DNA of 55,672 nucleotides, from NCBI GenBank assembly GCA_030653035.1, contig JAUSAB010000027.1:1-55672 (forward strand), in the 5' to 3' direction. Position numbers and translations under genes: made by a program. Of the stretch, positions 7,537 to 44,080 are shown piece by piece. The notes beneath the pieces are model-generated. The model was not told the origin of the DNA. It saw nothing but the letters and a program-made list of their open reading frames with translations, and did not search any database. Numbering within the stretch: the first letter of the stretch is position 1; each line of letters begins with the position of its first letter. This DNA is from Desulfocapsaceae bacterium. GTDB taxonomy: Bacteria; Desulfobacterota; Desulfobulbia; Desulfobulbales; Desulfocapsaceae.

Positions 7537-8667
7537 ATGAGGATCGACAACATCCGACAACTGGGCATCAAGGAACTGCGCAGTCTGGCCCGTGACCCGA
7601 TCATGCTGGTGCTGATCGTCTTTGCCTTCACGGTTGCGATCTACTCGGGGGCCACGGCAATGCCGGAAACCCTCAACAAGGCGCCGATCGCCATCGTTGA
7701 CGAAGACCGGTCGCCGCTGTCGGCGCGTATCGTTGACGCCTTTTATCCTCCCCATTTCATCCCGCCGGTGATGATTACCCAAGCCGAGATGGATGTCCGG
7801 ATGGATGCCGGCCTTGACACCTTCGCGCTGAACATCCCGCCGGACTTTCAGCGCGATCTGCTGGCAGGGAGACAACCAACGATTCAACTGAATGTCGACG
7901 CGACCCGCATGACCCAAGCCTTTACCGGCAGCGGCTATATCCAAACCATGATCGCCAGCGAAGTCGCTGAGTTCAGCCAGCACTATCGCCGGATTGCTGC
8001 GCCACCGGTCGATCTCGAACTGAGGGCGCGCTTCAACCCCTCCCTGAGACAGGCATGGTTCGGGGCGGTGATGGAAGTCATCAACAATGTCACCATGCTG
8101 TCCATTGTCCTCACCGGCGCCGCTCTGATCCGTGAGCGGGAGCATGGAACCATCGAACATCTGCTGGTCATGCCGGTGACACCCTTTGAGATCATGACGA
8201 GCAAGATCTGGTCCATGGGGCTGGTGGTGCTTGCCGCCTGTGCTTTTTCTCTGATTTTTGTGGTCCAGGGACTGCTGGCGGTGCCCATTGAAGGTTCGCT
8301 TGTCCTCTTTTTGTTCGGCGCCGCGCTGCACCTGTTCGCCACGACTTCCATGGGCATTTTCATGGGCACCATCGCCCGCTCAATGCCGCAGTTCGGGCTG
8401 CTGTTGATGCTTTTTCTGATGCCGCTGGAGATGCTCTCCGGCGGGGTCACGCCGCGCGAGAGCATGCCGGACTTTATTCAAGTTGTAATGCAGATAGCGC
8501 CGACCACCCACTTTGTCTCACTCGCCCAGGCGATTCTCTATCGGGGGGCAGGCCTGGATGTAGTATGGCCGCAATTCATTGCCCTTCTTCTCATCGGTAC
8601 GCTCTTTTTCGGCATCACGCTGCTCCGCTTCCGCAAAACCATCGGGATGATGGGAGAAGGTCAATAG
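7537..8667 (+). CDS. ABC-2 type permease (YhhJ-like), exporter subunit
   Basis: A 376-residue membrane protein that begins 2 nt after the stop of the ATPase-permease fusion. It has one N-terminal helix after a basic stretch (ARDPIMLVLIVFAFTVAIYS), a periplasmic region of about 140 residues, and five to six C-terminal helices containing the ABC-2 signature region (REREHGTIEHLLVMPVTP). It is paralogous to the permease half of the preceding protein, which carries the comparable [16 protein letters not shown]. The two permeases probably pair as a heterodimer fed by the two fused ATPases. No obvious terminator follows; the next 300 nt hold only a tRNA remnant. Confidence 0.93.
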   Translation: MRIDNIRQLGIKELRSLARDPIMLVLIVFAFTVAIYSGATAMPETLNKAPIAIVDEDRSPLSARIVDAFYPPHFIPPVMITQAEMDVRMDAGLDTFALNIPPDFQRDLLAGRQPTIQLNVDATRMTQAFTGSGYIQTMIASEVAEFSQHYRRIAAPPVDLELRARFNPSLRQAWFGAVMEVINNVTMLSIVLTGAALIREREHGTIEHLLVMPVTPFEIMTSKIWSMGLVVLAACAFSLIFVVQGLLAVPIEGSLVLFLFGAALHLFATTSMGIFMGTIARSMPQFGLLLMLFLMPLEMLSGGVTPRESMPDFIQVVMQIAPTTHFVSLAQAILYRGAGLDVVWPQFIALLLIGTLFFGITLLRFRKTIGMMGEGQ

Positions 8668-8900
8668 ATCGCTGTTTTTGGCACAAAAAAGGGACTTTCA
8701 AGGAAATAAAAGACCATATTTCAATAATATTTTCCCGAATAACCAAAAAACTCGTTTGGTTCGACCCGTGTTGGTTATCAACCAAATGCTCAGATATCAC
8801 CTCTATCAATCGAATTTCACCTTTGCTTTCCCGCCACAACACTGCCACACAGGTGAGATCCTCTTTTACCGGCAGTAATGAGTTTTCTCCAAAGTAAGCA

Positions 8901-8957
8901 TACCGGGCTGTAAATCTCATAATCAGTAGGTCTGCGGTTCGACACCGTATATCCGGA
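8901..8957 (+). other. Decayed tRNA 3' half (pseudo-tRNA)
   Basis: The T arm is intact: stem TGCGG (8933-8937), seven-base loop TTCGACA (8938-8944) and stem CCGTA (8945-8949), pairing with one G.T. It is followed by a seven-base acceptor 3' strand (TATCCGG, 8950-8956) and a discriminator A. The variable-loop-like stretch CAGTAGGTC precedes the T arm, and CTGTAAA or CTCATAA upstream resembles an anticodon loop. No matching 5' acceptor strand (CCGGATA) or D arm was found, so this is not a working tRNA. It is probably the relic of a tRNA broken by an insertion or deletion, since tRNA 3' ends are common integration targets. Confidence 0.5.
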
Positions 8958-8970
8958 ACTTACGGAGGTT

Positions 8971-10107
8971 CTACGCTTCTTGCCCAGTCCAGGCCCGCAA
9001 CTGACAGGCCACCCCCAAGAATTCCCCGTTATTTCCAAAGAGTGGGGTCAGTTCCTGCCACAGGACTTTTCCGTCAGGGTGAAGACACTTTCCTGCAATA
9101 TGGACCTTCTGGTCAAAAACCTTGTACATCCTGGTAAGGACCTCACCGGCATTGTCCATGCGGGAGGCGACTGTTTGCAGGTCGTCGAATGTTTTGATTT
9201 CCTGGCCGTTCAGGTTGAGCATGTTACAGAAGGTCCTGTTCTTTCTGACCAGATTCCGATCCTGATCAAAGATAATCAGGCTGAAATCGAGGGCGTTAAA
9301 GGCGGCCTGGGTTCTGGCGTGTACAGTCAGGTCCTGATGATTTCTGTTTGCTGGCCTGGCAACAATAACGGCACGATCAACGCGCCCCATATCGCCCATA
9401 ACCGGGAGCATATTGACCGTGTATGTTCCGTTGTTGGTGTTGATGTCCTTGGTGTGAGGGGTGTTCAGGTCAAATGTCTTTTTGAGTAATAGCTCATAAG
9501 GGGAGTAGTCGGGTACAATCTCGGCCAGAACCGTATCAAAGTCCTCGCCATGGTGTTTTCCCAAAAACTCCATGGCAGCATGGTTCTGATACATGATTTT
9601 CCGGTCCGGGGAGACAATGGTCACGCTGTCATGCAGGGCCTCAAAGACCTCATAACAACGGATCATATGGGCCTTGGCCTCTTTCGCCTCTGCTGCGGTA
9701 TCCTGAAATTTGTCGCGGATAACCTGGATGATTTCCTCGATGGGCAGTGCACGCCCCTGTTCTGTGGTCTCGCTTACATTCTCGGGCAAAACGCCTGCGA
9801 CAAGTTTCTCTGACACGGGCGCTTCGCCCTGCATGGTGGGATGAGTGGCCGCGGTTATCACGGCCCCTTTTTTCACCAATTCTTCTTCTGTCATATTGAG
9901 GGGCTTGCTGACCTTGTTTCGCCACTCCTGTGAGCATCCCTGCTTCCCATTCAAAACCTTGCTGAGAGTGACCGCTGAAATCTGCGCCTTCACTGCCAGA
10001 TCCTTCTGGGCTATTTTCTGAGCCCGAATCGTCTCCGCCAGTCCGGCAATAAAAAACGCCTGTCGCTGTTTGTTCTCAATGGCGATGGCGGTTTCGCTGT
10101 TTTCCAT
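8971..10107 (-). CDS. HTH (XRE/Cro-like) regulator with two PAS domains
   Basis: A 378-residue cytoplasmic protein. Residues about 20-75 form a Cro/CI-type helix-turn-helix (AQKDLAVKAQISAVTLSKVL is the two-helix core), followed by a linker. A PAS domain lies at about 155-260 (DSVTIVSPDRKIMYQN) and a second at about 270-372 (DFSLIIFDQDRNLVRKN). The second contains Cys296 and Cys345, which might matter for redox or ligand sensing, though that is only a guess. The ribosome site GAGAGG lies just before the ATG. The gene is divergent from the twin secreted-protein genes across a 441-nt AT-rich spacer and is the obvious candidate to control them. XRE-PAS proteins act as transcription factors that respond to small ligands or redox state. 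Confidence 0.85.
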   Translation of the reverse strand: MENSETAIAIENKQRQAFFIAGLAETIRAQKIAQKDLAVKAQISAVTLSKVLNGKQGCSQEWRNKVSKPLNMTEEELVKKGAVITAATHPTMQGEAPVSEKLVAGVLPENVSETTEQGRALPIEEIIQVIRDKFQDTAAEAKEAKAHMIRCYEVFEALHDSVTIVSPDRKIMYQNHAAMEFLGKHHGEDFDTVLAEIVPDYSPYELLLKKTFDLNTPHTKDINTNNGTYTVNMLPVMGDMGRVDRAVIVARPANRNHQDLTVHARTQAAFNALDFSLIIFDQDRNLVRKNRTFCNMLNLNGQEIKTFDDLQTVASRMDNAGEVLTRMYKVFDQKVHIAGKCLHPDGKVLWQELTPLFGNNGEFLGVACQLRAWTGQEA

Positions 10108-10354: not shown

Positions 10355-10548
10355 TCATTCCTACTACAGTATTAATAAGTAAGCAAGAAGCAGAAAATCT
10401 ACCCCAAATTGCCTTACCGGAGCCGGAGTGCATTCAGTCGACAAGCTCTGGATTCATCAAAGCACAAAGGGGGTTAATAAATATTTTAGCGGCAAATATT
10501 TTTATCTGTCACTGACACAGTGAAATCCTTAACCAATTGGAGATTACA

Positions 10549-11706
10549 ATGATGCAAAAAATCATGGGCGGCTTGATCCTGGCTCTCACCCTTATTTTTT
10601 CAGCTTCCCCCGGTAACGCCACCCTAACCACTGACCTGCAAAACCTGGTGATCCAGGGTACAGCCTTGCACGACCAGCTGGCAAACATCAGTGTTAACCA
10701 GGGCGGAACCTGCACCCAGCTTGGCACCCTCAACACCTCCATGGAGAGTTATCTGGCCTCGGTGGCCGTGGTTACCAGCAAGCTTACAGTGCCTGTTACT
10801 CTGACCAGTACCGACACTACCTCACTTGACACCCTTTCCACCCTCACTACAGAGATAGCAGCCGATTCCGTTCGTCTGTCCTTGGAACTGCGCAGCATCG
10901 AAAACGTGGCCGAGCTGTTCGAATACCGGGCCGCCCTGAGCGCCATGCTCCGGCTGTCAGACGATATCGGCAAGATGGCCGACAGGATCCTGGAGATGGC
11001 GGACCGCATCCTCGTCATGGCGAGTAATATCGGCGCCATGGCTGATCGTATCCTCATCACCCAGCAGTTACAGAACAGCAATGTGGCCCTGACCCAGCAA
11101 TCCATCCTCACCACCCAGGCGAATATGGTGGCCATGAGCGACAGCCTTTCCTCCATTGCCTACAATATGACTTTGGGACTTTTGAAGACCGATGCGGTTG
11201 TCCTGGAAAACGACATGGGGGCAACAACGCTCACCAGCGCCAACATGGCAACGGAATTGGATAGTCTGGCTGCAAAGACCGCACTCCTGCTTGCCGGCAC
11301 TGAGAGTCTTTACACCCTGATCAACCAGAACAGCAAGACTGCCAGTCACTTTATCAATAGTGACACCCTGACCTTGCTGGGCGATCTTTCCACCATCAAC
11401 AAGACCTTATCCCTCGCGCTGGAGACCTACGCCAATACCATCAGCCAGATTGCGCCGTTGACCGAGACTCCGGTTCTTGCCGATGCCACCGCCAGCATGC
11501 TGCACCTTACCGCCGACATCGGCAAGATGTCCGGCCGGATCATGGAAATGACCGACAAGATCATCGTCATGGCCGACAACATCGGTTTGATGAGCGACCG
11601 GATTGTCACGACCCAGGATTTGCAGAAGACCAATATGGACCTGACCGGGAACTCGTTGCTCACCGCCCAGAGTGTCACCCTCACAGTGATAAAAAACTTC
11701 CTTTAA
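10549..11706 (+). CDS. Secreted helical protein with two IxxMADR heptad modules (paralogue A)
   Basis: Not a family I recognise. The start is placed at ATG 10549 (or 10552) because GGAG at 10539-10542 sits 6 (or 9) nt upstream; an in-frame TTG at 10537 overlaps this ribosome site. The N-terminal signal peptide is clear (MMQKIMGGLILALTLIFSAS...GNA). The mature protein is about 360 residues, Ser/Thr/Leu/Met rich, with a single Cys and no further membrane helix. A 58-residue module occurs twice, at nt 10945-11118 and 11497-11670. Each is a run of seven-residue units of the type I-x-x-M-A-D-R ending in TQQLQN or TQDLQK. The pattern predicts long amphipathic helices or a coiled coil, periplasmic or surface located. 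The paralogue follows after 32 nt. Confidence 0.85.
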   Translation: MMQKIMGGLILALTLIFSASPGNATLTTDLQNLVIQGTALHDQLANISVNQGGTCTQLGTLNTSMESYLASVAVVTSKLTVPVTLTSTDTTSLDTLSTLTTEIAADSVRLSLELRSIENVAELFEYRAALSAMLRLSDDIGKMADRILEMADRILVMASNIGAMADRILITQQLQNSNVALTQQSILTTQANMVAMSDSLSSIAYNMTLGLLKTDAVVLENDMGATTLTSANMATELDSLAAKTALLLAGTESLYTLINQNSKTASHFINSDTLTLLGDLSTINKTLSLALETYANTISQIAPLTETPVLADATASMLHLTADIGKMSGRIMEMTDKIIVMADNIGLMSDRIVTTQDLQKTNMDLTGNSLLTAQSVTLTVIKNFL

Positions 11707-12860
11707 AATAAACATAGACATCCAACGGAGACACAAATATGAAAAAGAACATTATCATTGCCCTGTTTATGGCGGTCAGCCTCTGGCTTCATCCGACCGA
11801 CTCCCAGGCGGCCCTGCTTGACGATCTGAATGGACTGGTGTCCCAAACCCAGGCCCTTGATACCCAGCTCCAGAATATCACCCTGACCGGCACTTCGGTC
11901 TGCGGCCCGCTGGTTGCCGCCAATCAGGCAGCCCGCGACCTTGTCAACAATATCACCCAGATTGACCAGGGGCTCGCCGCCCCCTTGCAGGTGGATGTGG
12001 ATATCCTCACCGCCCTCAATCAACTGGCGGCTCTAACTCCGAGCCTTGCCGGCGAAAACCTTCGCCTCTCAGTTGATCTGCAGACCCTGTCGCAGACCGG
12101 CCAGGCCATTACCATCAAGGACGGCATTGTGGCCATGCTCCAGCTCTCCGATGATATCGGCACCATGGCCGACCGCATTGGTGAAATGGCGGACAAGATC
12201 CTGGTCATGTCCGATAATATCGGCCTCATGGCCGATCGTATCATTGCCACCCAGGAGATCCAGAACGAGAACATCCAGCTTACCCAGCAGTCTATCCTGC
12301 AGACCCAGACCAATATGCTGACCGTGACTTCTCTGGTGGAGACCAGTACCAATGACCTGACCTTGAATCAACTGGTAATTGAAGGCAATCTGCTGGCGGC
12401 CAAGATGGCGGCAGTGATCTTAAACCCTTTTACCATGAAGACACAGCTTGCTACGGTGGCCACCGATATCCATACCTTTCTTGCCAAGGTGACCACCGCT
12501 TACGGAACCATCGCCCAGCAGTCGGCAACCAGCACCATGTACATCAACACCACCTCCCTGACCAGTCTGGTGAATGTCTCCATCATGCTCACCTCGCTGA
12601 CCACGGCCGTTGACGGTTATGTAATCGCCATTGACGCCCTGAAAAATATAACATCCAGCACCAGCCTTTCCGCCTCGCTCAAGAGCATGCTGCAGCTCTC
12701 GGCCGATATCGGAGTCATGGCCAACCGCATCCTGGAGATGGCGGATCTGATCCTGGCCATGGCCGACAATATCGGCATGGAAGCAGACCAGATCCTCGTT
12801 ACTCAGCAGTTGCAGAATGCTAACGTGGCCACGGTGCATGCCTCGATTCTGGCAGCCCAG
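10945..12860 (+). repeat. Four copies of a 58-residue heptad module in two paralogous genes
   Basis: Coding repeats at 10945-11118, 11497-11670, 12135-12308 and 12687-12860. Within both proteins the two copies start 184 residues apart. A shared pattern is ML-x-L-S-x-DIG-x-MA-x-RI-x-EM, then AD-x-I-L-VM-x-DNIG-x-M, then DRI...TQ-x-LQ-x-x-N. The exact conservation of spacing suggests that one duplicated protein was itself duplicated as a whole gene. Confidence 0.8.
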
Positions 12861-12899
12861 GACCTGGCAATCACTATTATTGTTGCCCGGAATTTATGA
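11739..12899 (+). CDS. Secreted helical protein with two IxxMADR heptad modules (paralogue B)
   Basis: A 386-residue paralogue of the gene just upstream, probably co-transcribed with it (32-nt gap). A classic signal peptide (MKKNIIIALFMAVSLWLHPTDSQA) precedes a mature start LLDDLNGLVSQ that parallels LTTDLQNLVIQ of paralogue A. The two heptad modules lie at residues 133-190 and 317-374, with cores DDIGTMADRIGEMADKIL and ADIGVMANRILEMADLIL. Between them are Thr-rich, mostly helical segments. The single Cys of the mature protein (CGPL, residue 55) aligns with that of paralogue A (CTQL). No enzyme motif, lipobox or C-terminal anchor is visible. A structural, envelope or chaperone-like role is possible but unproven. 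Confidence 0.85.
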   Translation: MKKNIIIALFMAVSLWLHPTDSQAALLDDLNGLVSQTQALDTQLQNITLTGTSVCGPLVAANQAARDLVNNITQIDQGLAAPLQVDVDILTALNQLAALTPSLAGENLRLSVDLQTLSQTGQAITIKDGIVAMLQLSDDIGTMADRIGEMADKILVMSDNIGLMADRIIATQEIQNENIQLTQQSILQTQTNMLTVTSLVETSTNDLTLNQLVIEGNLLAAKMAAVILNPFTMKTQLATVATDIHTFLAKVTTAYGTIAQQSATSTMYINTTSLTSLVNVSIMLTSLTTAVDGYVIAIDALKNITSSTSLSASLKSMLQLSADIGVMANRILEMADLILAMADNIGMEADQILVTQQLQNANVATVHASILAAQDLAITIIVARNL

Positions 12900-12967: not shown

Positions 12968-13006
12968 AAAAAAGCCCTTCAGGATATGCTCCTGAAGGGC
13001 TTTTTT
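12968..13006. terminator. Strong bidirectional intrinsic terminator
   Basis: A 17-bp perfect stem: AAAAAAGCCCTTCAGGA (12968-12984), loop TATGC, TCCTGAAGGGCTTTTTT (12990-13006). It sits between the convergent secreted-protein operon and the primase-like gene and can serve both. Confidence 0.92.
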
Positions 13007-13028: not shown

Positions 13029-14345
13029 TTACAGCACCCGGAGTTTGCCGGTTTTCCAGAGGGCAACAGCGCTGTACGTCCTGGCCCAAAAATTTGCTTT
13101 TTCTTCGGCGGGGTACTTGAAAAAATCCTGGGTCCAATTGAATGACGGATTTTGATACATATCGCGGAGAATGTTGCCAATATGTTTCGGTTTCCAGTGA
13201 GCATAGACAAGAAAATCGTAGACAAACCCAATAAGCATTTTGGGTTGGAGCGCCGAAGGATTGGGGAAATGAAGAATATTTCTGGTCCAATCCGGGATGT
13301 GTTCCTCTTTTTTGGCATATTCCAACGCCAGTCCGCGGGGAATGTCTTCCTGGCCGTCAAAATCACGGTGAAACAGAAAAAGATCGGAGGCCTTGTATTC
13401 AGCGATAAAATCAATCAGGGTCTCATTCGAACACGGGATGAATCCGGAAAATCTCTGGGCATAATCCACCGCCTTTTCCAGGTCCCACATGCAATCCAAT
13501 ACAAAATCGATATCGGGTGCTTCGATGATTGTTTGTCCGTCAAAGTAGGTGCCGATGACATCCACCAGAGGAGGTTGATGATAATTTCCGTACTTTTCCT
13601 GGTTTTTTTTGTGCAAGCTGAAAGGACTGCGGATGGCCCGCATAAAAGGAGAACCTTCACTCCAGGTATTGTCAAAGTTGATACAGTGATCAGCGCTATC
13701 GGAAATGGTGACCGGCAAAAGTCCGGCGGCTTCATTGCCTTGAAATGTCTTCATGGCCAGCAGGCCGATATATTCCGCAAGTTTGCCAAGCCCATTGAAC
13801 ACATGGGCTGCATCCAGGGAAATACCATACCAGCGCCTGATGTCATGGGGATCAATGTAATTGCAGGCCTTGATGAGATCGCCTTCCACAAAGCCTATTT
13901 TCCGCAGCTCTTCAGTAGCTCTCGTTCCCATGAGATTTTGGAACAACAGGTGACAGCCGGAGGGGGTATAATCGAGCAGATAAGGAATGCCTTTTGACCG
14001 GAAGAGCTCCTCGACAAAGCGCATCGAAGGGACCATCTGCTTGAAAAGTTGTTTTTGCGCTTCCTTGTCCGTATAGAGCTTGTAGTTCTCGGCTGCAAGA
14101 AAGATTTCAATATCAAGCGGCATGAGCACTGAGCGGGACCGCTCTCCGACAACAGGAAGATGAACCTGAAGCCCCCTTTCCAGGGTAAATTTTTCAAGTT
14201 GATCGACAGTGGCAGCTATTGCCGGGAAAATGGTCTCATGCGTCTCTGCCGCCAGCTCATTGCCCGCGGCAATAACGTAATGCCCGAACTGATAACAATT
14301 TCTCAGCCGGTCGATTACCCGGCCATAGTATTCTTGCGCATTCAT
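13029..14345 (-). CDS. Orphan archaeo-eukaryotic primase (AEP)-like polymerase
   Basis: The 438-residue protein carries, in order, the hallmarks of the AEP superfamily. Motif I is LMPLDIEIF (Asp78, Glu80), motif II is PSGCHLLF (Ser129-Gly-Cys-His132), and motif III is CINFDNTW (Asp225). They are followed at residues 239-246 by R-S-P-F-S-L-H-K, which matches the R-x-P-x-SLH-x-K nucleotide-binding signature of AEP primases. This assignment rests on motif order, not on a search. Metal-binding Asp/Glu residues and the His are all present, so the core may be active. No helicase, zinc or ligase domain is attached and no replication gene is adjacent. It could be a PrimPol-like repair or damage-tolerance enzyme, or part of a mobile or defence module. 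The ribosome site AAGGAAAGGGG precedes the ATG. It is monocistronic between terminator and spacer. Confidence 0.65.
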   Translation of the reverse strand: MNAQEYYGRVIDRLRNCYQFGHYVIAAGNELAAETHETIFPAIAATVDQLEKFTLERGLQVHLPVVGERSRSVLMPLDIEIFLAAENYKLYTDKEAQKQLFKQMVPSMRFVEELFRSKGIPYLLDYTPSGCHLLFQNLMGTRATEELRKIGFVEGDLIKACNYIDPHDIRRWYGISLDAAHVFNGLGKLAEYIGLLAMKTFQGNEAAGLLPVTISDSADHCINFDNTWSEGSPFMRAIRSPFSLHKKNQEKYGNYHQPPLVDVIGTYFDGQTIIEAPDIDFVLDCMWDLEKAVDYAQRFSGFIPCSNETLIDFIAEYKASDLFLFHRDFDGQEDIPRGLALEYAKKEEHIPDWTRNILHFPNPSALQPKMLIGFVYDFLVYAHWKPKHIGNILRDMYQNPSFNWTQDFFKYPAEEKANFWARTYSAVALWKTGKLRVL

Positions 14346-14551
14346 ATGTTTCTGCGGCCCCTTTCCTTGTCAGCATGAAACAGCATAAAGGTTTTTAAAT
14401 AAGCCAATCTCAAAAACCAGCAACAGTCCTGCCCTGTTGTGCACTTCAATGGCAGCGGACAAGAGTCTACCAGCCATACCAAAAGTCTACGCCTGCAGAT
14501 ACCCAACTGTCAAGCCCTAGCCCCCTGTTTCTCCCTGGCAAATTTACTTGA

Positions 14552-15088: not shown

Positions 15089-15390
15089 AAGTCGTTGATC
15101 TCCGGAAGATGTGCCCACGCTATGTTGTTACGGGCCTGCGCTGCAAATTCGTTTCTGGTTAAAAGAATGTTCCGACAACAACATGTAAAACGTGGCCTGT
15201 CCCTGGTCTATCCCGATTACGCCCCTTCAAGACCAAACGAAAGATATTGTCCTAATTGCGGTTGGTTTAATTGGCCCCTATCCTGATTCTTGTCACTAAC
15301 GCCAAAATTCAGCCGACCGCAAAAATAATCGACGCTCAAAGAAAGCAGCTCAACGCGGTCGTCTGGAATTTTAGTGTCAGACAACAAATT
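15089..15390. other. Spacer with a degenerate GGGGACAG-family repeat
   Basis: There is no convincing gene in these 302 nt. At 15188-15216 the stretch AAACGTGGCCTGTCCC followed by TCCCGAT is a worn version of the palindromic arm at 16748-16767 (AAACGTGGTCTGTCCCCGAT). The HEPN-like gene may therefore be bracketed by related repeats. A plus-strand frame of 63 codons here ending in CPNCGWFNW has no supporting ribosome site and is not called. Confidence 0.4.
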
Positions 15391-16692
15391 TCATTCATTA
15401 GGTGGTAATGATCGTGTGAAATTTCTATATTCAGTTAAATCTATTCCACCAATACCTACAACTCGTTCGACAATTTTAGGATGGTCTGTCCACGAACAAC
15501 CCCTGCGATAAGTTTGACTGTTTTCTTCTATGCCGTTAAGGAGTAATATCAGCCGTTCACGATCAAATTCTGCAACATACGGAGCGATGAATTTTACAAA
15601 ATTCGAGTCTGCTAAACCAAAACTGCCGCTGTCGCAATACATGCTGATTCCAATTTCGAATACCTCTTGAAGTTGTTTGGATTCCTTGGCTTGAATAATG
15701 AGATTGTTCCAATTCGCATCGCTAAGCTTCAATAGCAGCTTATATTCAAATGTTCTAAGCTTGGCAATGTGTTCTGCGAAGCTGCCGCTCAAGAATATTG
15801 CAGCCGCAAAAAGATTTGCGTCACTCTCTGCATATGAAGACAGCGGAACCTTGGCGGCATCGGTGAGAGCGTTATACAGGGCGGGACACTCCGACAAAAA
15901 AGAAATTAATTCCGAGAGGGGTGCACCATTCGGTGAGATCTCGCTGAAATAGGCGCTGTTCTGCACTACGAAATTTCTAAACTCAACAGGGTTGCGCTGA
16001 TACAGGAGCTGAAGACTTCTGGCATTAATTTCGCGGCCAGCTTCTGTATCTTGGTTGGATAGGCGAAAGCAAAATTTCCATAACGCCTTTATCAACTCGT
16101 GCTCAACAGATGGGTGCAATATCTTGAAGTATTTTGCTTCAAGATATTGCTTTAATCCCTTTTGGTCAGGAAATAGGTCTTTTTTTGATGCAACGTCAAC
16201 CACAAACTCGTCAACTATTTTTTTGGAAAAGATTGGTGGTTTCAAGAGCACAGCTTCCAGCGCATTACGGATTAGCGAACGTACTGTTTCTTTGTTCGGC
16301 GAAAAAAGCAAGTTAGCGCTACTTAGCACAGGGTGAGCAGAAAGATGCCTAATTTTTTGAAGATTTAAAAGGTGCTGGTAGTCTGCAATCTCCAATAGAC
16401 ATGTTCGCTTGTTAATTTCGTCGAGGAGGAATAGTTCCCAGTCTGGGCTTGATGGATTGGCCTGCTGCTTATTTTCAATTAATTTAAGAATTGAGGACGC
16501 TGTGTTGTCATGATAAAGGTCGCGCAGTGACTGTAGTTTATAGACTAGATCTGCAATTACTACAGACCAAAGCATTACAACGGCAGATCGATAGTTTTCA
16601 TTGATAAATGAACGTAACACCTCTACAAAATAATCCTTTGTTTTATGATCGACGATGTTCTCTGCTGCAATCTCTATTGAAAATTCATTCAT
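15391..16692 (-). CDS. HEPN-like protein of unknown function
   Basis: I start at ATG 16692 (MNEFSIEIAAENIV), which has AAAGG about 10 nt upstream. A longer frame from 16749 runs through a repeat palindrome and is unlikely. The result is 433 residues. The first 125 are helical, with HEPN-like traits: an early helix pair (YRSAVVMLWSVVIADLV) and the R-x4-H motif RHLSAH (Arg115, His120), which in active HEPN proteins is the RNase site. The rest is helical and without recognisable motifs. It is more AT-rich than the glutamate synthase genes. HEPN proteins often act in toxin-antitoxin, abortive-infection or Apea-type defence; that role is inference. There is no adjacent MNT partner; an MNT gene lies far away at 43745. 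Confidence 0.6.
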   Translation of the reverse strand: MNEFSIEIAAENIVDHKTKDYFVEVLRSFINENYRSAVVMLWSVVIADLVYKLQSLRDLYHDNTASSILKLIENKQQANPSSPDWELFLLDEINKRTCLLEIADYQHLLNLQKIRHLSAHPVLSSANLLFSPNKETVRSLIRNALEAVLLKPPIFSKKIVDEFVVDVASKKDLFPDQKGLKQYLEAKYFKILHPSVEHELIKALWKFCFRLSNQDTEAGREINARSLQLLYQRNPVEFRNFVVQNSAYFSEISPNGAPLSELISFLSECPALYNALTDAAKVPLSSYAESDANLFAAAIFLSGSFAEHIAKLRTFEYKLLLKLSDANWNNLIIQAKESKQLQEVFEIGISMYCDSGSFGLADSNFVKFIAPYVAEFDRERLILLLNGIEENSQTYRRGCSWTDHPKIVERVVGIGGIDLTEYRNFTRSLPPNE

Positions 16693-16716
16693 GAAGTAAG
16701 ACCTTTGTGGGTGACA

Positions 16717-16767
16717 ATCGGGGACAGACCACGTTTGCCAGCACGTCAAACGTGGTCTGTCCCCGAT
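16717..16767. repeat. Perfect palindrome of the GGGGACAG repeat family
   Basis: Arms ATCGGGGACAGACCACGTTT (16717-16736) and its exact complement (16748-16767), with an 11-nt loop. Such GGGGACAG-containing palindromes are dispersed in Desulfobacterota genomes and resemble REP-type elements moved by Y1/RAYT transposases; no such transposase is in this window. It lies just upstream of the HEPN-like gene. Confidence 0.8.
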
Positions 16768-16813
16768 AATTCTTAATTTTTAAAACCTGTTGCGAAAATT
16801 GGTGGATAATTAC

Positions 16814-17473
16814 TTATTGTAGTGCAGCCATTATTTCTTTATTATTAAGAAGTTTTGATAGTGCACTACGGCTTGCCTCTATTGGGGATACTACAGTTTG
16901 TTTTTCTCTATTTTCATTAATATTTTTTTCAGTGCCTTCTGCCACCATTGCCCCTTCTTCATTATAAACTTCTGCTGTTAAATCATACAAGAATACAGTG
17001 TTTTGATATGTGTCACTTTGCCATTCGTTAATTTTGATAAGAACTTTTTTGTATGATTTTTTTAAAACCAAATTATTATTTATCGTCTGTTGATCCATAT
17101 CAAACGTTAGCTTGACATGTTCTGCATTAATTCCTGCATTTTTAAACCCTGAAGCAGCGGCTTCAACCAAATCATCTGCTAACGGCTTTCCACTCTCAGT
17201 ATTCATATACCAAGGATTATTAAATCCTCCTCTCATTAGGCCAATATAAGACGGTTTGTTGTTACCATTAACAATATACGGTCGCTTATCAATAACCCCA
17301 ATTACGATATTCTTATTTGACGTATAGGTTATATTGGGCCACGCATTAATATAATTTTCAGTTCTGTTAATAGCACTGTGTGCGCCACAACCACTTAAGA
17401 ATACTGGGATGAATAGTAACATTATTGAGAAATTGTTACATAATGCCTTGTGCTTACCTTGAATGTTACTCAT
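16814..17473 (-). CDS. Putative lipoprotein
   Basis: A 219-residue protein with a short basic start, a hydrophobic segment (FSIMLLFIPVFLSGC) and the lipobox LSGC, so probably lipidated and envelope-anchored. The body includes a beta-rich stretch (NIVIGVIDKRPYIVNG) and a C-terminal helical tail, and is AT-rich. I do not recognise the family; the layout recalls the YajG-type lipoproteins, but that is weak. Its start overlaps the stop of the preceding lipoprotein gene by 4 nt (ATGA), so the two are made together and may form a complex. Confidence 0.8.
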   Translation of the reverse strand: MSNIQGKHKALCNNFSIMLLFIPVFLSGCGAHSAINRTENYINAWPNITYTSNKNIVIGVIDKRPYIVNGNNKPSYIGLMRGGFNNPWYMNTESGKPLADDLVEAAASGFKNAGINAEHVKLTFDMDQQTINNNLVLKKSYKKVLIKINEWQSDTYQNTVFLYDLTAEVYNEEGAMVAEGTEKNINENREKQTVVSPIEASRSALSKLLNNKEIMAALQ

Positions 17474-18054
17474 TTGCTTCCCTTTTGTAGATGGTTGTTA
17501 ACGTCGACAATCCAAGATTGAATTTTTGGAGCCCCGTTCTCCGCCATTTTATCAATATTAAGTTGTTTTGGAATATTTTCAGGGGATACCATAATATACC
17601 AACTTATTTGACTTGGTGATTTCATGTCTAAGTAAATCGTGGCAGAATAATCACTTTTAACTTTATTCGCATACTGAAGAGGAAAGTCATCCACAATGGG
17701 AGTGACAGACTTGAAAATATTACTTTTTATTAGAAATTTAGAGAAGAATCCGAAATCTTGTTCAAGATTTTTTCCAAGATAATCAATCATATCCTCTGTT
17801 GGCTGGCCTGTTCTTTTTATGCCTAATGCTTCACAAGTTTTTTTGGAAGGTGTAATAATGACTGCATTTCCTTTAGGGGTAGAACTCACTGAGTTTATGT
17901 TTTTTTCTATTTCTTGTAAAAATTCTTTATGAGCACTGAGAGCACTTTCTGGTGATGTATATGAATTATTGTTGAAGGTATAATTATTCGCACAACCATT
18001 TAATAAAACAATAAAAACAACAGTCATAAATCTTTTTAAATTTATCATTATCAT
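17470..18054 (-). CDS. Putative lipoprotein, first gene of a lipoprotein pair
   Basis: Start at ATG 18054 or 18048 (MIMINLKRF); AAGGAGA lies 4-10 nt before them, whereas the longer frame from 18105 has no ribosome site. The signal peptide (RFMTVVFIVLLNGC) ends in a lipobox LNGC. About 180 mature residues follow with no known motif (a central helix QEIEKNINSV and a beta-rich end, YSATIYLDMKSPSQISWYIM). It is co-translated with the next lipoprotein through an ATGA overlap. AT-rich like its partner, which may point to lateral acquisition of the pair. Confidence 0.8.
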   Translation of the reverse strand: MIMINLKRFMTVVFIVLLNGCANNYTFNNNSYTSPESALSAHKEFLQEIEKNINSVSSTPKGNAVIITPSKKTCEALGIKRTGQPTEDMIDYLGKNLEQDFGFFSKFLIKSNIFKSVTPIVDDFPLQYANKVKSDYSATIYLDMKSPSQISWYIMVSPENIPKQLNIDKMAENGAPKIQSWIVDVNNHLQKGSK

Positions 18055-18448
18055 TCTTCTCCTTGAAAAAAATATGTTAAATAATTTGCTTGGTTGTTTC
18101 TGCAACGAAGTTCACTTTTCTTGGTGCCAACAGTGTATTAGACAGAATGGGTCAATATTGTGTTAGGCAGATTCTTTCTATCATTTTTTGGGAATATCAC
18201 GCGGATCATACCTATTCAATATATCACCTAACCTTTTGACGTTACCTGATGCAGCAGAAAAACACAAATCTCTTCAGGACATCTTTTCTAATCAGCAATC
18301 CCTATCACGTTATAGCGCCTCCCTGCCATATTTATCATTGATTACTTTCCCCTCCTTTGTTCCCTTGTTTGGCCTTGACAGAGCTCTTTTTTCGTTGTAA
18401 AAATTTTTCCCTTACCATTAATAAAGCAGTCTCATTCGTTCCTGTCTC

Positions 18449-40481: not shown

Positions 40482-40648
40482 ACGACGATAGGAGGCCTTG
40501 TCTTCAGGTTAAATTTCCTGATTTTGCACCCCAACTGCTTTACGCCGGCATCTCCAACAGAATACCCAAAAGTTAATTTTCAAAACCTGGCTTTCAACTT
40601 TGCTGGAACTGGTTGAAAAAAGTTACATAAACTGTCCCCGGAACTCGT

Positions 40649-40677
40649 AGCGTACGACAAAGCGTACTCTACGTCAA
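40649..40677 (-). promoter_or_regulatory. Duplicated yefM-type promoter inside the tandem repeat
   Basis: TTGACG (40677-40672), 17-nt spacer, TACGCT (40654-40649), identical to the functional copy upstream of yefM. It points towards the 3' end of toxin copy 1, so it could make antisense RNA across that pair. Confidence 0.45.
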
Positions 40678-40777
40678 GGGTTACTTTGTGAATTCCAGGA
40701 AGAAAAAATAGTAATTTTTCACGACCCTTGAATCGACAACAGCCTCTTCACTCTCTCCGCGAAAAGGAATAATCGGC

Positions 40778-40806
40778 TTGCCGTGTGTATATAAATATTA
40801 TATAAT
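40778..40806 (+). promoter_or_regulatory. Promoter of RHH/RelE unit 2
   Basis: TTGCCG (40778-40783), 17-nt spacer, TATAAT (40801-40806), identical to unit 1. Confidence 0.65.
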
Positions 40807-40836
40807 AATGTAAAACAAAACACATGGAGGTGGGCA

Positions 40837-41115
40837 ATGCATACTTTGTCGCAATTGGAAAAACAGCAGGTCGGTCTCAGGCTACCTAAATATATCATCG
40901 ATGAGCTTGATGAATTGACGAAGCAGTTTTCACTGAACAGAACGGATATTGTCACCGAGGCGATAAAGTCCTATATCGCTGATCAAAAATCAAAATTATT
41001 CTATGAAAGTTTTGATACATCCTGCAAAGAATTAAAAACCATGCTGGACGGAAACCTTCCGCAAACAACTCTCAGGGAACTTATCGATGAACTTGACACT
41101 GATAATAACCCCTGA
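40837..41115 (+). CDS. Ribbon-helix-helix antitoxin, copy 2
   Basis: 92 residues that differ from copy 1 at only four positions (T3 for N3, I21 for V21, D22 for E22, K69 for Q69). The RHH motif and tail are intact. Because its toxin is broken, it may now act as a free antidote to toxin copy 1. Confidence 0.92.
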   Translation: MHTLSQLEKQQVGLRLPKYIIDELDELTKQFSLNRTDIVTEAIKSYIADQKSKLFYESFDTSCKELKTMLDGNLPQTTLRELIDELDTDNNP

Positions 41116-41416
41116 GTTTGCCAGAGCAGTCAAAAATCTCCTAAAAAAATACAGATTGATTCTGAATGACCTGTAAACGCTTGAGAAGGAGTTATCAACT
41201 GGAGAGGCCAAGGCTGTTGAGCTTGGCAGAAACTGCTATAAAACAAGATTACAAAATTCCTCTATTCCCGTTGGCAAAAGTGGCGGATTCAGGATCATCT
41301 ATTTTTACAAAAAAGATGACAAGATATATCTCCTTGATATTTATTCAAAAACAGATATGGAGAATATCAGGGATGCAAGATTGTTGGAAATTCTCAAGAA
41401 TAATCACCTGGAATAA
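41087..41416 (+). pseudogene. RelE/ParE-type toxin, copy 2, nonsense at codon 30
   Basis: Aligned to copy 1, the lysine codon at position 30 (AAA) is now TAA at 41174-41176. Otherwise the frame is open for the remaining 80 codons and ends at the same place. The toxin is therefore truncated before its core. No frameshift is needed to explain it. Confidence 0.93.
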
Positions 41417-41540
41417 ATGACGCTGGAGGCCTTGTCTTCAAGCTCAGTTGCCTGATTTTACGCCAACATCTCCAGTAAAAAAAGCTACAAGTTATTTTTC
41501 AAAACCTGGCTTTCAACTTTGCTGGAACTGGCTGAAAAAA

Positions 41541-41586
41541 GTTACATAAACTGTCCCCAGAACTCCTAAACTGTCCCCAGAACTCC
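41541..41586 (-). repeat. Double GGGGACAG-type repeat at the end of the duplicated unit
   Basis: On the minus strand GGAGTTCTGGGGACAGTTTA occurs, followed at once by a second AGTTCTGGGGACAGTTTATG. Unit 1 has one such repeat at 40620-40646 (GAGTTCCGGGGACAG). Confidence 0.8.
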
Positions 41587-41636
41587 ACCCGTCCCTGATA
41601 TCATCCCAACGATCAGGAGAACTGTTCACAAAGATA

Positions 41637-43568
41637 TCAGTGAATCTCTCTTAGGAGACGGAAGCCGAAGTAGGTGAGACCATGCTTGCTACTGATGGGG
41701 CTACCTACCGCTCGATACCCAGATCGGCAGTAAATGGCGGGGGTCTTAAACGAGCCACCGTGGCCATCGTAGTAAGTGTCTTGACAGAATTCCCATACAT
41801 TGCCGTGCATATCGTGTAGCCCCCAGGCATTCGGTTTTTTCAGCCCAACTTTATGAAATTGGTCTCCAGAATTAGATTCATACCATGCGTACTCACTTAA
41901 ACGTCCAGCGTAACTCCCATAACAAAAGGCCACATTTGAACCAGCACGACAAGCATACTCCCACTCAGCCTCAGTTGGCATCCGGTAACACTCTCCACCG
42001 GCTAATATGTTCAACCTTTTTATGAACTCATTGCATTTTTCCAAAGAGATATCTTCAACAGGCAGATGATCCTCGCTATACCCCATATTCGTGGTGTCCA
42101 TCACAGCATGCCATAGAACCCTGGTCACCGAATACTTGCCTAGTAGAAAGTCGTGGTCGATACTCACTTTACGTTTTTTGTCATCGCCCATCATAAACGT
42201 GCCGGCAGGAATGGGACAAAACTCAAGACTGGCAATCCTTGTACCAAGGCCATTATGCACATCAAGCTGAACTCCTTCAAGAGTGCGCATCTCGGTAACA
42301 GCCTTTCGAAAAAAACCACCAGGTTTGACAACTACTTCGCGGACAATTTTGGGTGTCCTGCTTGTAAGACATATTTTGGCATCTTTTGCCTCAACTTCAA
42401 TCTTAGTGATTATCTCATCTAGACTTTGTATTGCAGCCAGTATGTCAAGCAGCGGCCAGGCACCACCTTTATCCACCAATTCCTCCAAACGACCAACCTC
42501 CGCATGCTTCTTCACCTCTGGAGAATGCTTCCGCCAGAACTGAATTTTGTCGAGCGCCACTTTGACATGAGGTACGGTCTGATGATATTTCTCCAAGCGT
42601 AGGGCATCAATAAACTCACGTAGTCGTTCGTCATGTTGCTGAAAATCGCCATCGCCAGCGGCCTTTAGAGCATAAAATCGATCAAGATCAATAGCCTTGC
42701 CCAAGACCGGCAGGGCAGAATCCACTTGGCCAAGGGCCATTCGTACCTTGGCGGCCTGAAAGAAGGCCTCTCCCAGTCGGGGATGAAGCGCCATGGCCTG
42801 TTCGGTGTGGGCCAGGGCTTCCGGCATCTTACCTTGGCAGTAGGCAGCCCAACCGGCTGAAAGAAACGCCCGGCCAGCATCCTCTGGATAATCTGCCTTG
42901 CCGTAACGGGCTGCCAACAGAAACGACTCTTCGGCCTTTGCCAAATTGACGAGCATCATATCACCGTTGGTAAACCCAAGCCTCACGGTTCCCATCATCT
43001 GATGGAAACGCCATTCGAGTTTGTACCCGGCTGAGGTGTGATCACCTGCAATCGCCTTGCCAAGCTCCTCAACACATTCCTGATACAATCCCTGCCGAAA
43101 GGCGTCACGGGCAATCTCAAAGTGGTTGAAGGCCACGGTCTGCACCGGAGTTTTGGCAATCTTGACCAATTCGTCAAGGGTATCATTCATGTGGCCCAGA
43201 CTGGCGATAACCTCGCCGAAACCCCAATGGAAAGTAGCGTTCAGCTCGGAAATGCCGGCGGAAATATTGTCCAGGCCGTATGAGAGCTGCTCGAATCCCT
43301 CGTTAAGCACACCAGTAATACGATCAGTTGAAGCATCGAGCGCACCGGTAATTCGATCAGTGGAGGCATCAAGGGCCTGGATATGCTCGTTGGCCAGGGC
43401 CTCGTTCGAGGCGATGACCTCCCTTGTCTGGCGCGATACCTCCATCGAAATCCGGTTGGCCGTTTCCCGCCCGGCTTGCCGCGTCACATTCTCAATATCA
43501 TCGCTAAAAGATTTTTCTTGAAGATAATCTGGATATGACAAATGAGAGCCAAAGACGTAATAACTCAT
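41637..43568 (-). CDS. Coiled-coil / TPR / SUMF1 (FGE-sulfatase) protein
   Basis: 643 residues. The first 130 form a long coiled-coil-like region with a near-repeat (LDASTDRITGALDASTDRIT). A TPR-like array follows at about 145-335 (HFEIARDAFRQGLYQECVEEL, AFLSAGWAAYCQGKMPEAL). The C-terminal 200 residues are a complete SUMF1 domain: PIPAGTFMMGDD, DHLPVEDISLEKCNEFIKRL, RMPTEAEWEYACRAGS, GLHDMHGNVWEFCQDTYY and YFGFRLLREIH. The cysteines of the active formylglycine-generating enzymes are not clearly present as a pair near the end, so it may act as a binding or effector module. No sulfatase is adjacent. It sits alone among toxin-antitoxin genes. Confidence 0.88.
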   Translation of the reverse strand: MSYYVFGSHLSYPDYLQEKSFSDDIENVTRQAGRETANRISMEVSRQTREVIASNEALANEHIQALDASTDRITGALDASTDRITGVLNEGFEQLSYGLDNISAGISELNATFHWGFGEVIASLGHMNDTLDELVKIAKTPVQTVAFNHFEIARDAFRQGLYQECVEELGKAIAGDHTSAGYKLEWRFHQMMGTVRLGFTNGDMMLVNLAKAEESFLLAARYGKADYPEDAGRAFLSAGWAAYCQGKMPEALAHTEQAMALHPRLGEAFFQAAKVRMALGQVDSALPVLGKAIDLDRFYALKAAGDGDFQQHDERLREFIDALRLEKYHQTVPHVKVALDKIQFWRKHSPEVKKHAEVGRLEELVDKGGAWPLLDILAAIQSLDEIITKIEVEAKDAKICLTSRTPKIVREVVVKPGGFFRKAVTEMRTLEGVQLDVHNGLGTRIASLEFCPIPAGTFMMGDDKKRKVSIDHDFLLGKYSVTRVLWHAVMDTTNMGYSEDHLPVEDISLEKCNEFIKRLNILAGGECYRMPTEAEWEYACRAGSNVAFCYGSYAGRLSEYAWYESNSGDQFHKVGLKKPNAWGLHDMHGNVWEFCQDTYYDGHGGSFKTPAIYCRSGYRAVGSPISSKHGLTYFGFRLLREIH

Positions 43569-43613
43569 TAAGAATACCTCTTAACCTTAAGTTTTAAAGA
43601 AGAAACCCAGGGG

Positions 43614-43684
43614 GAAATTCCGGGGACAGGAAATTCCGGGGACGAAATTCCGGGGACAGAAATTCCGGGGACAGTATACGCAAC
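43614..43684 (+). repeat. Tandem GAAATTCCGGGGACAG repeats (about four units)
   Basis: Units of 14-16 nt start at 43614, 43630, 43644 and 43660, followed by TATACGCAACC. A related block lies on the other side of the nucleotidyltransferase gene at 44037-44080, also in the same orientation. Confidence 0.9.
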
Positions 43685-43744
43685 CTTTTCTCAGATAGGG
43701 GCCCCCTATTTTCGAAAATCCGGGCCCCTTCCCACATTCTTCTT

Positions 43745-44026
43745 TCATAATGGCCTGGCTTCATGAAGAATTTTTTCCCGAAGATGTTTGCTCAAGCTGC
43801 GCTCGGTAACAATATCAACCCTCAAGCCGGTAAGAGCCTCAATTTCCTGTTTCATGCCGATAAGATCAAACAAATCCCTGCCCGGCGCCAGATCAACAAG
43901 CAGATCAAGGTCACTGGAGGGAGTAGCTGTCCCTTTGGCCATGGAGCCGAACAAGCGGACATTCAACGCCCCATTTTTACTCGTGATTTCTTGAAGCTGT
44001 CGAGAAAACTTATCTATTGTCTTCAT
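43745..44026 (-). CDS. MNT-type minimal nucleotidyltransferase (antitoxin-like), orphan
   Basis: 93 residues with the nucleotidyltransferase signature GSMAKGTATPSSDLDLLVD (Gly27-Ser28, Asp39, Asp41) and a third Asp71 in RVDIVTE. This is the MntA type, which in HEPN-MNT pairs AMPylates the HEPN toxin. Downstream on the same strand, where a HEPN gene would be, there are only GGGGACAG repeats. All three catalytic acidic residues are present. Confidence 0.9.
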   Translation of the reverse strand: MKTIDKFSRQLQEITSKNGALNVRLFGSMAKGTATPSSDLDLLVDLAPGRDLFDLIGMKQEIEALTGLRVDIVTERSLSKHLREKILHEARPL

Positions 44027-44036
44027 ATTATCCCTT

Positions 44037-44080
44037 GGACAGTAATTCGGGGGAGTAATTCGGGGGACAGGATACGCAAC
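44037..44080 (+). repeat. GTAATTCGGGGGACAG repeats flanking the MNT gene
   Basis: Two units (AGTAATTCGGGGGAG and AGTAATTCGGGGGACAG) are followed by GATACGCAACT. They match the block at 43614-43684 in the same orientation. Confidence 0.8.

Follow-up and report, generated by a model that had tools for sequence, protein, structure and literature searches.

Primase-polymerases of the AEP type (archaeo-eukaryotic primases) are defined by three motifs, hhhDhD/E (I), sxH (II) and hD/E (III), according to PMC10345425. In archaeal PriS the motif II histidine, a motif IV arginine and a histidine six residues later form the nucleotide-binding HRH set, as described in PMC5862659. The same source presents PriL as nearly exclusive to chromosomal replicative primases and PriCT-bearing AEPs as exclusive to mobile elements, and it assigns the α-helical subdomain of the pRN1 primase to PriCT-1, related to PriL. 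According to PMC5663958, Prim-PolC/LigC act in base excision repair alongside endonuclease IV, the repair partner of Prim-PolC, and Prim-PolC uses ribonucleotides to fill short gaps there.

The gene studied here lies in a stretch of 55,672 nucleotides from a Desulfocapsaceae bacterium (contig JAUSAB010000027.1), which was analysed as a whole and is referred to as the window. An earlier note on this DNA had read four motif strings as the signature of an AEP-type primase-polymerase with intact catalytic residues. The strings, their order and the numbering of Asp78, Glu80, His132 and Asp225 are all correct, and the identification holds because the fold matches Prim-PolC and LigD-Pol and the catalytic positions, including the HRH set, are conserved across three clades. 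For the coordinates of all features see Table 1.

Table 1. Features of the primase-polymerase gene and its borders (window coordinates).
Feature	Position	Strand	Basis
AEP-type primase-polymerase gene	13029..14345	-	438 aa, ATG start; fold match, conserved catalytic positions, dN/dS
Catalytic AEP domain, residues ~1-304	13434..14345	-	aligned structural rows; boundary is our choice
Motif I, LMPLDIEIF, residues 74-82 (D78, E80)	14100..14126	-	D78 and E80 in 32/32; strand 77-82
Motif II, PSGCHLLF, residues 128-135 (sxH, H132)	13941..13964	-	G130 in 32/32, H132 in 31/32; strand 130-134
Motif III, CINFDNTW, residues 221-228 (hD, D225)	13662..13685	-	D225 in 32/32; end of strand 221-225
Motif IV region, RAIRSPFSLHKK, residues 236-247 (R236, R239, H245, K247)	13605..13640	-	R236, R239, K247 in 32/32
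C-terminal ancillary helical domain, residues ~305-438	13032..13433	-	separate model; the four sister-clade cysteines are missing
Promoter-like TTGACA-18-TAGACT	14484..14513	-	consensus match only; in the 206-bp gap between AEP gene and yaeQ
Bidirectional terminator-like hairpin (12 bp, A- and T-runs)	12970..13006		by eye; not reported by the scan that gave the promoter-like matches

With 23 aligned window-type sequences as input, the model of the window protein reached a pLDDT of 87.8 and a pTM of 0.90. Re-alignment of 269 Foldseek candidate chains with VIA-align placed M. smegmatis Prim-PolC first, with a Z-score of 16.0 and an rmsd of 3.6 for 249 aligned residues (13% identity). The first ten rows are all Prim-PolC, LigD-Pol or a Methanocella NHEJ polymerase (Z 16.0–14.0), and rows 1–48, from Z 16.0 downwards, are all AEPs, which points to a Prim-Pol fold for the model. 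CRISPR-associated Prim-Pol follows further down at Z 11.9 and PriS at about 11. A Foldseek search of the PDB resulted in weak matches, none at or below E 0.001 and the best, at E 0.025 and a probability of 0.97, being M. tuberculosis LigD-Pol; its first 21 rows are AEPs and include human primase, CRISPR-associated Prim-Pol and human PrimPol. In a viral structure library the best match had an E of 0.06; several phage primase and helicase proteins were matched, none at or below 0.001. Model residues 1–317 are spanned by at least a fifth of the aligned structural rows; within this range we set the domain boundary given in Table 1.

By sequence the protein matches no family of Pfam, NCBIfam, PHROGs or PADLOC (0 families at E up to 1). 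A sequence search of the PDB gave 0 matches up to E 10, and profile searches of the PDB gave none. Four relatives likewise have no Pfam match, and for 19 sister-clade proteins (alignment A3, see below) Pfam and NCBIfam returned no AEP or PriL family, the few weak rows being taken as chance. We recognised no paper in the open-licence literature as describing the family; an earlier mention in Iyer et al. 2005 is possible. This is an unnamed AEP family, unlabelled in every library searched, within a superfamily that is itself known.

The catalytic positions are conserved across three clades, from which 32 selected proteins were aligned together. Residues D78, E80, G130, D225, R236, R239 and K247 are identical in all 32, and position 132 is His in 31 and Asn in one. 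In the model D78/E80, H132 and D225 are located on three separate strands (residues 77–82, 130–134 and 221–225). LMPLD78IE80 agrees with the definition of motif I, but P76 sits at a position defined as hydrophobic; G130-C131-H132 agrees with motif II and F224-D225 with motif III. H132, R239 and H245 correspond to the HRH set of archaeal PriS, with the same spacing from the arginine to the +6 histidine as given in PMC5862659. Residues 239–247 of the window protein read RSPFSLHKK. Here H245 is His in all window-type (10/10) and tandem-type (5/5) proteins and mostly Tyr (13/17) in the four-cysteine type, and P241-F242 is not retained in tandem-type proteins.

The gene is under strong purifying selection in the relatives of the window, with dN/dS values of 0.048–0.107 in five orthologue comparisons (dS saturated, >2.3, in two). 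Since the positions are conserved in 32 proteins and dN/dS is this low, the catalytic motifs are not due to chance.

Promoter-like consensus matches number 5 in the region against 3.4 expected. The upstream regions of 21 loci contain none of three known SOS-type boxes and no shared dyad beyond those of shuffled sequences, and we rejected a conserved operator for these loci. Downstream, the terminator-like hairpin separates the gene from a convergent gene of 386 aa (11739–12899). The product of the latter has no Pfam family over the cut-off; together with its neighbour (10537–11706) it forms a tandem of paralogous, exported-looking repeat proteins of one cluster. The 386-aa gene adjoins yaeQ or a yaeQ remnant in two genomes of the genus, G006 and G016. 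At the place of the AEP gene these two carry an inverted repeat, seen by eye, with arms GGGACAGCGACC and GGTCGCTGTTCC (L113 1290–1381 in G006, L114 1285–1375 in G016); the copy in G006 has one mismatch more.

The earlier note had overlooked a C-terminal helical domain. Residues ~305–438 are all-helical, and a separate model of residues 300–438 has a pLDDT of 87.4. When 255 chains were re-aligned with it, the pRN1 primase helix bundle came first at Z 5.0, a weak value below the safe level, and the next row had Z 4.1; in our reading, the matched bundle is the PriCT-1 subdomain mentioned above. Plain Foldseek with this domain put unrelated helical proteins first (complex II, globins; best E 1.5), and neither the pRN1 domain nor any other primase is among its best 50 rows. 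Pfam reported no PriCT match in the window protein.

In a profile-profile alignment the C-terminal domain of the window type aligns with a four-cysteine domain of the sister clade. Three cysteines of this domain (C371, C456 and C465 of L033) are present in 19/19 rows of alignment A3; the first interval is 83–86 residues and the second 9, or 16 in two rows, and a fourth cysteine follows 4–9 residues further on. A3 comprises 19 of the 28 sister-clade loci, the cysteine-free L070 being among those left out. The layout resembles that of the Fe-S domain of PriL, a likeness that is suggestive and weakly supported. The PriL family PF04104, searched in 8 whole genomes, gave one match (E 0.52), which lies inside a sister-clade AEP (G470:C8), and none to the second AEP copy of that genome or to the AEPs of four other sister-clade genomes. 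An hhalign comparison of the sister clade with one yeast Pri2 CTD was not significant (probability 0.6%); in it, PPC is aligned with PLC.

The window genome has a single AEP copy. Matches were found in 6 of 97 genomes of the relatives set, the window genome included. Within the genus only 4/17 genomes carry the gene, which is therefore dispensable; two more genomes, in the same order, have distant copies (25 and 23% identity). A scan of genome contigs yielded 24 related loci. Titles of 21 of these name Desulfobacterales, Desulfobulbaceae, Deltaproteobacteria or similar (69–97% identity), and the remaining ones are two from Elusimicrobia (61–62%) and one from Lentisphaerae (about 47–48%). A 15-row profile matched 8 of 297 genomes of the window's phylum, 8 of 240 of the phylum of the Lentisphaerae copy and 15 of 198 of that of the Elusimicrobia copy; the scores of G063 and G090 are inflated, because both of these distant copies were in the search profile. 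Judged by their labels, assemblies of at least three bacterial phyla contain the family. In one window-type locus (L029 183–1495) the AEP frame is split into two overlapping ORFs by a frameshift or an assembly error. The Lentisphaerae genome has two diverged window-type AEPs arranged tail to tail (L101 6148–7512, plus strand, and 7843–9156, minus strand; also L028).

Three clades emerge from a maximum-likelihood tree of 41 chosen proteins, each set off by a branch with 100% bootstrap. The window type accounts for 15 rows, the four-cysteine type for 21, including the cysteine-free L070, and a tandem type from Elusimicrobia for 5. According to a warning of the program, the two long branches without cysteines may have been joined falsely. 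Window type and four-cysteine type are clearly related, because hhalign aligns them with probability 100 and E 1.2e-41 over 400 columns (24% identity). Within a wider bacterial family, the window type is a branch that has neither the cysteines nor the partner gene. The earlier note's picture of a lone AEP was right about the enzyme and missed the sister clade with its four cysteines and its endonuclease-IV-like partner gene.

Both types can co-occur: G398 (Desulfobacteraceae) has a window-type AEP (L024) and a sister-type fragment (L063) on different contigs. In seven loci of the Elusimicrobia phylum (L080–L086) a four-cysteine and a cysteine-free AEP stand in tandem, perhaps as a two-subunit enzyme; thiamine genes (thiM/thiE-like by eye) adjoin the tandem in L080, L082 and L084. 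A CRP/FNR-like regulator gene (by eye) is located directly upstream of the four-cysteine AEP in L074, L075, L078 and L079.

The partner of the sister clade is a TIM-barrel gene, detected by profile in flanks of ~1.5 kb beside the AEP gene in 13 of 28 sister-clade loci and in 0 of 25 window-type loci (window and L007–L030). These counts refer to flanks of unequal length, some contigs ending early, and exclude the AEP fragments L063 and L064 as well as repeat fetches. PF01261 was present in 7/7 partner genes scanned. At the f31 loci L035–L038 the neighbour is divergent; the one scanned matches PF01261 at 1.6e-7, and the other three were judged by eye. We compared the partners with the nfo copy of G063 at nine residues which we take to be the metal ligands of endonuclease IV. 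Eight of the nine are in aligned columns in 10/10 ordinary partners; the remaining ligand, which is the first His, does not vary among these partners and lies two columns off in the alignment. In the divergent f31 partner (L035) six of the nine are kept. A comparison of the L068 partner with PDB sequences ranked MJ1311, TTHB071 and endonuclease 4 above sugar epimerases. When three sister-clade genomes were searched for the partner, the copies next to the AEP gene scored best (E 1e-112 to 1e-129). Among 15 window-type genomes searched 13 have some match, the best with 3.6e-26, so that the window type yielded no close partner copy. The endonuclease-IV-like partner and the AEP gene of G063 are adjoined by a genuine-looking endonuclease IV gene (L095 740–1609, plus strand). 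The sister-clade AEP of L070 (1390–2817, minus strand), which has no four cysteines, keeps its endonuclease-IV-like neighbour and would represent an independent loss.

Prim-PolC, the best structural match, differs from the window protein in several respects. The identity is as low as 13%, the window protein has some 130 C-terminal residues in a separate helical domain, hhalign with a six-sequence profile of the related LigD-Pol gave no match, and there is no DNA ligase gene among the 24 window ORFs scanned with Pfam. LigD polymerase has the AEP fold in common (Z 14.7–14.0), but the window protein contains no ligase or nuclease family and has no profile match to it, and Ku (PF02735) gave no match in the window genome G000 (99.99% complete), the control being positive in B. 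subtilis.

With archaeal PriS the window protein shares the HRH set, and the sister clade has a four-cysteine motif resembling that of PriL in the same chain as the AEP core. In contrast to the archaeal pair, however, the bacterial protein is a single chain with no separate PriL (PF04104 gave no match in G000 and was positive in 4 archaeal controls), and the window branch is without the four cysteines. With PolpTN2 and PrimPol-PV1, the plasmid and prophage AEPs of PMC5862659, the window protein has in common that a helical domain, which may be PriL- or PriCT-like, comes after the AEP core in one chain. According to the same paper, PolpTN2 has Gln at the motif II position occupied by His132 in the window protein; moreover, the window family was not found in plasmid, phage and viral collections, and it has no PriCT match in Pfam. 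CRISPR-associated Prim-Pol (CAPP) shares the AEP fold at a Z-score below that of Prim-PolC, but no CRISPR gene is among the window ORFs scanned.

Based on the model and the conservation pattern we propose, with moderate confidence, that the window gene encodes a single-chain chromosomal AEP primase-polymerase, most likely used for repriming or short-gap filling at DNA damage. The N-terminal palm domain (residues ~1–304) would bind two metal ions through D78, E80 and D225, and the incoming nucleotide would be held by H132, R239, H245 and K247. Nucleotides could then be added to a primer, or a primer be started, on a DNA template. The C-terminal helical domain (~305–438) would be ancillary, comparable to the domains by which primase-competent AEPs hold the template and the first nucleotide. 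In this way DNA synthesis would be re-started or filled in at damage, and the enzyme would serve neither as replicon initiator nor in Ku-dependent end joining nor in defence. The endonuclease-IV-like neighbour of the sister clade fits the pairing of Prim-PolC with endonuclease IV in PMC5663958. The window branch has no repair gene next to the AEP gene, so for this branch a repair role is extrapolated from the sister clade and Prim-PolC. Further points against the proposal are the weak Foldseek matches, also those of the C-terminal domain, the negative profile comparisons with LigD-Pol and the PDB, the dispensability of the gene within the genus and the absence of SOS-type boxes upstream in the 21 loci.

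Alternatively, the protein could be a replication protein, or its remnant, from a plasmid, prophage or integrated element captured by the chromosome. Most bacterial AEPs described in PMC5862659 are mobile-element proteins, the distribution is patchy (4/17 genus genomes), and copies with 48–62% identity across Desulfobacterota, Elusimicrobia and Lentisphaerae suggest lateral transfer. Within the genus the gene behaves as a unit that is present or absent by itself: the counterpart of 1595 bp of the window measures 285 bp in G006, and that of 1627 bp measures 325 bp in G016. Both of these genomes keep the 386-aa gene and a flank with yaeQ or its remnant and have no AEP gene, and because both flanks are kept the AEP gene was gained or lost alone. 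We nevertheless regard a mobile origin as unlikely. There are 0 relatives in 72,556 plasmid records, 0 in 50,697 phage records (window protein as query) and 0 in IMG/VR (exact peptide patterns), no helicase is fused, selection is strongly purifying, and no neighbour is widely common in the 24 loci and the window (integrases: part of the flanks scanned). The mobile-module remnant suggested by the earlier note has therefore gained no support. Its statement that no helicase is fused or adjacent agrees with the Pfam scan, in which none of 24 window ORFs, a subset of those in the window, is a helicase, replication or plasmid gene.

The protein might also act on RNA or make a nucleotide signal in stress or ribosome hibernation, instead of repairing DNA. 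An HPF-like gene (by eye) is found near the AEP gene in 3 of 24 orthologue loci (L010, L013, L016) and beside it in the sister-clade locus L033, and Prim-PolC prefers ribonucleotides according to PMC5663958. This proximity is, however, restricted to a minority of loci and occurs on different sides, and the frequent partner of the sister clade is nuclease-like and not RNA-related. Such a role appears quite unlikely to us.

From the neighbours the earlier note had also proposed a repair/defence setting, and one could think of an anti-phage or plasmid-control module formed with YaeQ and PD-T7-3. The next upstream genes in the window are indeed yaeQ (PF07152, 5.6e-69), a neighbour correctly named in the note, and a gene described there as HEPN-like, which matches PD-T7-3 of PADLOC (5.2e-152). 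In the available flanks YaeQ recurs in 2 of 24 related loci and PD-T7-3 in none, and we rejected a defence island on these counts. None of the neighbour families is widespread when the window is taken together with the 24 related loci: an ABC-transporter-like cluster occurs in 5/25, YaeQ in 3 and a hibernation-factor-like gene in 3. In the flanks examined, YaeQ lies near the AEP gene only within the genus, namely in the window, L007 and L008 and, as a remnant, in G013, and the PD-T7-3 block at 15.2–18.17 kb has no counterpart in L007. The window protein itself, as stated above, has no PADLOC family. Since the neighbours are not widely conserved, the defence part of the proposed setting is unsupported, and we judge a defence module to be very unlikely. 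A joint function with YaeQ was considered separately and rejected: YaeQ matches occur in 8/17 genus genomes, 4 of which are without AEP. The intact AEP gene of G013, whose neighbouring yaeQ is reduced to a remnant of 65 residues containing a stop, counts in favour of the enzyme proposed above.

The PD-T7-3 gene (15391–16749) has a GC content of 41.7%, compared with 51.2% for the window. It belongs to a block (15199–18170) with two lipoprotein-like genes (by eye) that is missing from the closest relative, L007, which has a different ORF of 239 aa at this position; the site is a variable spot. The palindromes GGGGACAG, which the earlier note had counted among the surroundings of the AEP gene, are enriched in the window (9 copies against 2.1 expected), but not at this gene: the copies are clustered and partly inverted at 16720–16764, around the start of the PD-T7-3 gene, and at 40632–44070. 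They are likely a small repeat element.

A catalytically dead AEP acting as accessory subunit, of which the tandem copies of L080–L086 with their resemblance to a two-subunit arrangement are reminiscent, is extremely improbable, as the catalytic residues are invariant in the aligned window-type and tandem-type proteins and the window genome has no second copy.

The single-chain repriming or gap-filling enzyme proposed here belongs to a family that is unnamed in the searched libraries, although it is present in at least three phyla, is strongly selected among the relatives of the window and has an AEP active-site signature that is complete. More tentatively, the family as a whole may be a bacterial, chromosomal, single-chain primase family of the archaeal type, with a PriS-like core and a PriL-like Fe-S domain, coupled to an endonuclease-IV-like enzyme as a module for lesion cutting and re-synthesis; the window branch would then be a derivative that has lost the cluster and the partner and has kept the enzyme. 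If a bacterial AEP encoded on the chromosome did have a domain like PriL or PriCT, it would break the rule given in PMC5862659. The two branches would further constitute a natural pair with and without Fe-S cluster and allow a comparative test of the role of the cluster in primases. The recurring endonuclease-IV-like partner would in turn provide a direct functional hypothesis, namely that of a nick-and-resynthesise repair pair.
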